DNA from: Methanohalophilus euhalobius
GTDB lineage: Archaea; Halobacteriota; Methanosarcinia; Methanosarcinales; Methanosarcinaceae
Assembly: GCF_900215215.1 (NCBI RefSeq)
Contig: NZ_OBDR01000004.1
Coordinates: forward strand, 1 to 64,000
Direction: 5' to 3'
Length of the DNA: 64,000 nucleotides
Shown piece after piece: positions 1,614 through 2,641 of the stretch (the stretch's first letter is position 1; the number at the start of each line of letters is the position of its first letter). A program made the translations under genes and the position numbers. Below the pieces are notes generated by a model. That model saw only the letters and a list, made by a program, of their open reading frames with translations. It did no database searches and had not been told where the DNA came from.

Positions 1614-2408
1614 CTAAATAGTAAATTTGGGCTTTGTAGAAATCCTCAACCAGACAAAACATACAATCTTGACAGATCTGTCAAGATTGTGCAATACCAC
1701 TTTTAATTTCACTTCTTTTACTTGGTTTCTATATTTCCTGGCTCTCAGATTTTCCCCATATTTTCTTTTCAATACAGAGAACATCGTTTCACTCAAATTT
1801 CGCAGCGAGTAAATTTTATCATCAAATTCTCGTAACATTTTCTTTCTATAATGTCCTTTTATACTCTTTCTTTCACGCTGTCTCAGTGGAACAATTGCTA
1901 TTGATCCGAGTTTTTCTCTCGTCAATTCATGTATGCTTTCAGAATCATACGCTTTATCCATTACATAATATCTTGATTTCCTGTTGCGATGACATTGCTA
2001 AAGCAATGTCTTTGCATGTTTTGCATCATGAACAGGTTTACCTGATATTTTGTATCCAGTTATGACAAATTTCTGCACATCAACTGAAATACTGGTCTTG
2101 ACATAATTTCGCCTCCACTTCTTGATTCTCCAGGAATAGTAGTTGCTACAATACCCACTTGTAAAACCAGTTGAATCGATACCAGTAACTTCAACTGACT
2201 CTCCATTCTTGTAAAATAAGTCTAATGTCTTTTTGAAAATACGATCAAGTATTACTGAATAGATTCGAGTAACAAATTTTTGAAGTGTAGTAAAATGAGG
2301 CACTTTGGTTAATCCAAGTTTAGTCTGGATAGAACTCATCAATTCAACAAGATCAACAAAATCCCTGTAATCTTCTCCTAAATATTCCTTTAACAAAACC
2401 AACGTCAA
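1614..2408 (-). CDS. IS5-family transposase with an in-frame UAG codon
   Basis: Two segments (2408-1998 and 1961-1614) lie in the same frame and are separated by a single TAG at 1998-2000. Read through, they form one IS5-type transposase with the N-terminal KYSKQTYTQHQLL-like helix region, a GIDSTGF catalytic-Asp motif, and the C-terminal DKAYDSE and FSVLKRKYGE motifs. The open frame continues upstream of the TTG at 2408 to about 2490 without an ATG or GTG, so the true start is uncertain. At the UAG site the context reads TLL-X-QCHRNRK. Relatives, as far as I recall, carry a basic residue there. In a Pyl-decoding methanogen X could be pyrrolysine; otherwise the gene is dead. The normal stop is also TAG, just outside the left inverted repeat. 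Confidence 0.7.
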
Positions 2409-2641
2409 TAGCTGGTGTTGTGTGTATGTTTGTTTGGAATATTTGCAGCTGTAGAGTGGCGGTGTGAATACCGTGTTACTTGCAATGCTATATCAATAAA
2501 ATTTAAGTACTTGTTAGACAAACACAATCATCCCCTTGTGTTTCTAGTGCAAAAGTACACAGGGGACTTCTTCTTATTAAAATTATACCAGCTTAGCTGA
2601 ATTTAGAGAAAAGGATTTCTACAGAGCCGAAATTATTACTA
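1619..2641 (-). mobile_element. IS5-like insertion sequence with terminal inverted repeats
   Basis: The left end reads GGCTTTGTAGAAATCCT from 1630. The right end, read on the minus strand from 2628, is GGCTCTGTAGAAATCCT, so 16 of 17 bases match. The match continues outward through AATTT and, with a 1-2 base offset, to TAGTAA (1619-1624) and TTACTA (2636-2641). The element is about 1.0 kb, normal for the IS5 group, and carries one minus-strand transposase gene. A target duplication could not be fixed because the exact outermost base is uncertain. Confidence 0.75.

Follow-up and report, generated by a model that had tools for sequence, protein, structure and literature searches.

A probable pyrrolysine codon in a probable relic of an IS5-family transposase gene of Methanohalophilus euhalobius

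Results

The window, a 64,000-nt stretch of DNA from Methanohalophilus euhalobius, contains an insertion element of the IS5 family with terminal inverted repeats that match at 15 of 16 bases (Table 1). The original prediction described an IS5-like transposase gene split by one in-frame TAG, with family motifs on both sides and matching inverted repeats at the ends, and each of these features was confirmed, with the gene on the minus strand. The GIDSTGF motif (Asp codon at 2175–2177) precedes the TAG in frame, and the VMDKAYDSE (Asp codon at 1956–1958) and KRKYGE (Glu codon at 1752–1754) motifs follow it, placing the DDE catalytic triad at D106, D179 and E247. The read-through frame scores 245.2 bits against NF033579 (IS5 family transposase; cut-off 140), and the Pfam DDE_Tnp_1 match extends over residues 105–270, crossing the TAG at residue 165. 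DDE enzymes lacking the second Asp and the Glu should not be active; because the TAG splits the first catalytic Asp from these two residues, a product that terminates at the TAG should be inactive.

Table 1 Features of the element in the window and TAG-containing host genes discussed in the text
Feature	Position	Strand	Remark
IS5-family insertion element	1630–2628	minus	999 bp, bounded by terminal repeats
Terminal inverted repeat GGCTTTGTAGAAATCC	1630–1645		transposase gene 3′ end
Terminal inverted repeat GGATTTCTACAGAGCC	2613–2628		transposase gene 5′ end
Main transposase frame	1617–2492	minus	open except for the TAG at 1998–2000; stop TAG at 1614–1616 in the flank
In-frame TAG, candidate pyrrolysine codon	1998–2000	minus	between the first and second catalytic Asp codons
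Palindrome GACATTGC-TTTA-GCAATGTC (minus-strand reading)	1991–2010		surrounds the TAG; stem also in AAG and TCG copies
TTG start position used by relatives (TTG TCT AAC AAG)	2519–2521	minus	
1-nt deletion site relative to L142, L146, L212 and L213	2460–2461	minus	N-terminus out of frame
UvrB gene	L262:1278–3251 (G000:C21:21278–23251)	plus	one in-frame TAG, at residue 424
PPK2-type polyphosphate kinase gene	L252:6729–8237 (G000:C18:366729–368237)	minus	one in-frame TAG, within the domain
FilR1-type regulator gene	L251:15645–16430 (G000:C18:315645–316430)	minus	one in-frame TAG, in the FilR1 middle domain
Cas3-like helicase gene	L263:14288–16507 (G000:C17)	plus	in-frame TAG between the N-terminal part and the DEAD domain
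Cas4 and Cas1 genes	L263:1249–2868		upstream of the Cas3-like gene

The transposase frame has no stop codon of its own inside the element and reads through the terminal repeat into the flank (1614–1630), an arrangement also seen in the related copies L142, L212 and L213. A perfect 28-nt palindrome, ACAATCTTGACAGA/TCTGTCAAGATTGT, lies at 1663–1690 in the 3′ part of the gene, and imperfect forms of it in relatives retain 8–13 of 14 pairs. Perfect 8-bp target duplications flank L142, L212, L213, L147, L224 and L226, whereas the outer 8-mers of the window copy (TAAATTTG and GAAATTAT) differ, so that no 8-bp duplication is present at this position; it is also missing in several other relatives. We attribute its absence to decay or to loss by recombination, and it does not argue against membership of the IS5 family.

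Compared with L142, L146, L212 and L213, one base is missing from the window copy between 2460 and 2461, and the first ~20 codons from the TTG at 2521 are out of frame with the remainder of the transposase. Close relatives can begin at this TTG, and the same codon is present in the window; the range quoted originally, 1614–2408, starts at an internal TTG (2408). We consider programmed frameshifting at the N-terminus unlikely, as the compared relatives have the base. This separate 1-nt deletion would block full-length translation irrespective of how UAG is read, so the window copy is probably inactive, and it is most likely a relic for a reason unrelated to the TAG.

Overall, the window copy is 93% identical to L142, a copy with TCG at the TAG site that comes from genome G022 (apparently Methanococcoides). 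At element positions ~518–639, it agrees with L143 and L145, which have the TAG, instead of with L142, while outside this tract it mostly matches L142. This ~120-nt TAG-carrying tract, which distinguishes the window copy from its closest relative, points to recombination, through which either the window copy would have acquired the TAG tract or L142 would have lost it.

The check for pylT and pylS suggested with the original prediction was positive: tRNA-Pyl(CUA), encoded by pylT, and pylS, pylB, pylC and pylD are all encoded in one locus of the host. A stop-codon census on a 424-kb sample (~22% of the genome) showed that TAG terminates 4 (1.6%) of the 252 ORFs that are at least 200 aa long; UAG use under 6% has been reported for Pyl-containing archaea (PMC9723677). 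Two of these four long TAG-ended ORFs, encoding UvrB and PPK2, continue beyond the TAG. When ORFs of at least 100 aa were considered, in-frame extensions of at least 40 codons followed 7 of 16 TAG-ended ORFs, compared with 46 of 355 ORFs ended by TAA or TGA (Fisher p = 0.003). Pfam domains span the TAG in PPK2, the FilR1 regulator and the window transposase. No Pfam domain crosses the stop in the 46 TAA/TGA controls, and the controls with domains on both sides resemble neighbouring genes in one frame. With UvrB included, TAG-interrupted genes amount to 4 of 16 versus 0 of 355 for TAA/TGA (p = 2e-6), UvrB having been judged by its orthologues and the controls by Pfam.

The same-genus orthologues of UvrB, PPK2 and the FilR1 regulator (91–98% identical in most) have no TAG at these places. 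UvrB is 98% identical in five same-genus genomes, and the relatives searched have no TAG there; the orthologues of PPK2 (95–96% identical) and of the FilR1 regulator (91–95% identical) are likewise without it. The interruption of conserved genes in the sample by TAG, and not by TAA or TGA, is hard to explain unless UAG is specifically read as sense, and UAG is probably a general pyrrolysine codon in this host. TAG still seems to terminate some host genes, such as pylB. The Cas3-like helicase gene, for which a search of 12 genomes yielded no relative, is probably continuous through its TAG as well.

An identical CTT-TAG occurs in four copies of the element from three genomes: the window copy and the Methanococcoides copies L143, L145 and L213. 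Other close copies have TCG, TCA or TTG at the site, and Lys and Arg codons predominate in deeper relatives. In the comparison of related copies that the original prediction had proposed, some copies share the TAG, the protein downstream of it is conserved, and Lys is common in the deeper relatives. The residues found there in relatives are Lys, Arg, Gln, Ser or Leu, and on alignment the site is tolerant of many residues. Given the identical CTT-TAG in the three Methanococcoides copies, the TAG is best described as a heritable state of the element lineage. Both Methanohalophilus and Methanococcoides carry the element. A tree of its central tract requires at least two changes for the TAG state and weakly rejects a single TAG clade (p = 0.044). 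Part of the clade may have inherited the TAG from its ancestor, the codon may have two origins, or recombination may have moved it.

Among these copies, L213 of Methanococcoides alaskense is full length, with the TAG as its sole interruption, good terminal repeats and a perfect target duplication (AATTTTGT, 8 bp). In the part of the gene downstream of the TAG, the pair L143 and L213 has a dN/dS of 0.10, and the window copy paired with L213 gives 0.08, which is as low as the values among TCG copies; the values are pairwise and cannot show that constraint acted after the TAG arose, although they fit translation through the TAG. Transposition of L213 could have been provided in trans by L212, an intact TCG copy in the same genome. 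No relatives of the L213 protein were found among the viral contigs searched.

Many related copies of the element in these genomes have decayed, and the TAG copies in G022 are fragmentary or bear TGA stops, as L143 and L145 do. These observations, together with the frameshift and the missing target duplication of the window copy, would be in keeping with the TAG and the frameshift being two inactivating mutations in a dead copy, with UAG acting as a terminator in the host. We consider it unlikely that simple decay is the whole story, because one and the same CTT-TAG recurs in four copies from three genomes, L213 is undamaged apart from the TAG and has fresh-looking ends, and the conserved host genes are interrupted by in-frame TAG and not by TAA or TGA.

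The origin of the codon appears less simple than the one-base change from AAG to TAG first suggested. The nearest copies have TCG or TTG at the site, and the preceding Leu codon differs too, being CTT in all TAG copies and CTA or CTG in almost every other close copy. Inversion of the palindrome core would convert CTA-AAG (Leu-Lys) into CTT-TAG in one step, accounting for the Leu codon change and the TAG together, and would be compatible with decoding as pyrrolysine. In L225, L226, L227 and L149 the loop reads TAAA, of which TTTA is the exact reverse complement, and a family-wide search with the TAG-state pattern also matches AAG copies on the opposite strand, so that its hits cannot simply be counted as TAG copies. 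We regard such a micro-inversion as possible but doubtful: the loops of the nearest non-TAG copies are TATC, TGTC or TATT rather than TAAA, the AAG copies fall outside the TAG-bearing clade, and two point changes would suffice too.

The perfect 8-bp hairpin noted originally (stem 1991–1998 with 2003–2010) is exact, and the region around the TAG folds better than its shuffled versions (z = −3.3). The same stem is present in AAG and TCG copies, with modest covariation only, in coding sequence, which argues that the hairpin was not made for UAG decoding. A hairpin acting as a signal for UAG or pyrrolysine was rejected, since copies without UAG share the stem. A dedicated RNA element is not required for pyrrolysine insertion in general (PMC2933860).

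Several copies of the element in genome G061 (L224:963–4122, L232, L233 and L234) are interrupted by insertions of ~3.2 kb that sit just 5′ of the same TAG-site palindrome. The insertion in L224 carries two sets of group II intron domains together with a reverse-transcriptase-like ORF of 592 aa. We take G061 to be M. burtonii.

Discussion

The sequence comparisons indicate that the TAG within this IS5-family element is an amber codon most likely translated as pyrrolysine in the host, and that the window copy is most likely a relic on account of a separate deletion. The Pyl-tRNA would read UAG to give a full-length transposase with pyrrolysine at a variable position, and the codon would be tolerated as near-neutral sense in the element lineage. 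The TAG would then reflect the UAG decoding of the host, and would be neither a product of simple decay nor a demonstrated control switch. The 1-nt deletion near the start would inactivate the window copy regardless of the meaning of UAG. The evidence supports the pyrrolysine reading at the level of the host and of the element lineage, and from these we infer the pyrrolysine residue itself. Of the original proposal of a pyrrolysine codon, the part that rested on the host has held, as the genome is pyl-positive and UAG behaves like a sense codon elsewhere in it; the frameshift and the lack of a target duplication speak against the window copy as an active, pyrrolysine-dependent transposase.

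The original prediction went further and proposed that transposition is tuned by pyrrolysine supply, so that the mobility of the element would track growth on methylamines. The host is pyl-positive, and a full-length product would need read-through of a TAG that separates the catalytic residues. No link between transposition and growth on methylamines was found, however. A frameshift disrupts the window copy, the codon at this site in intact relatives is TCG, AAG or AGA, copies with other codons have the hairpin as well, and housekeeping genes such as that for UvrB contain UAG too, where regulation by pyrrolysine would make little sense. A regulatory role for this UAG thus seems highly improbable. 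It is also a long shot that the codon locks the element to its hosts, in the sense that TAG elements would make active transposase only where UAG is read as pyrrolysine, the lineage would be restricted to archaea with pyl genes and its mobility might track pyrrolysine supply. For the activity of a UAG-containing transposase, L213 of Methanococcoides alaskense is a better object of study than the window copy.

Beyond the element, the data support general decoding of UAG as pyrrolysine in Methanohalophilus. Routine annotation splits UAG-bearing genes, here those for UvrB, PPK2, the FilR1 regulator and probably the Cas3-like helicase, and may label them as pseudogenes. Archaea that read all TAG codons as pyrrolysine were reportedly described in 2025.

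The element shares with NF033579 and DDE_Tnp_1 transposases the DDE domain and the inverted repeats, and its relatives have the 8-bp target duplications; the window copy differs in its in-frame UAG, its frameshifted N-terminus and its lack of a target duplication. UAG-bearing transposase genes, which the original prediction mentioned for Methanosarcina, are indeed known from Methanosarcina acetivorans and M. mazei (PMC2933860), where they form the clusters transposase1 and transposase2 (PMC3639795). The likeness lies in an in-frame amber codon in a transposase of pyl-bearing Methanosarcinaceae, and the window copy differs in also having a frameshift. According to a review, related transposase genes in M. 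burtonii have no amber codon. The copies in G061, presumed to be M. burtonii, are likewise without one, and G102, presumed to be M. acetivorans, contains only fragmentary relatives of the window element.

Amber codons are also known in the citrate synthase gene of M. mahii, a housekeeping gene in the same genus as the host (PMC3017947), and in the gene for Thg1, which is not a methyltransferase, in M. acetivorans (PMC2933860). These cases resemble ours in that a conserved gene of a methanogen with pyl genes is intact except for an in-frame UAG, whereas here the UAG occurs in a mobile element and in the genes for UvrB, PPK2 and the FilR1 regulator of one genome. UAG-containing transposases in Methanosarcina and a housekeeping gene with an amber codon in Methanohalophilus were thus known already, and the element in the window adds another case.
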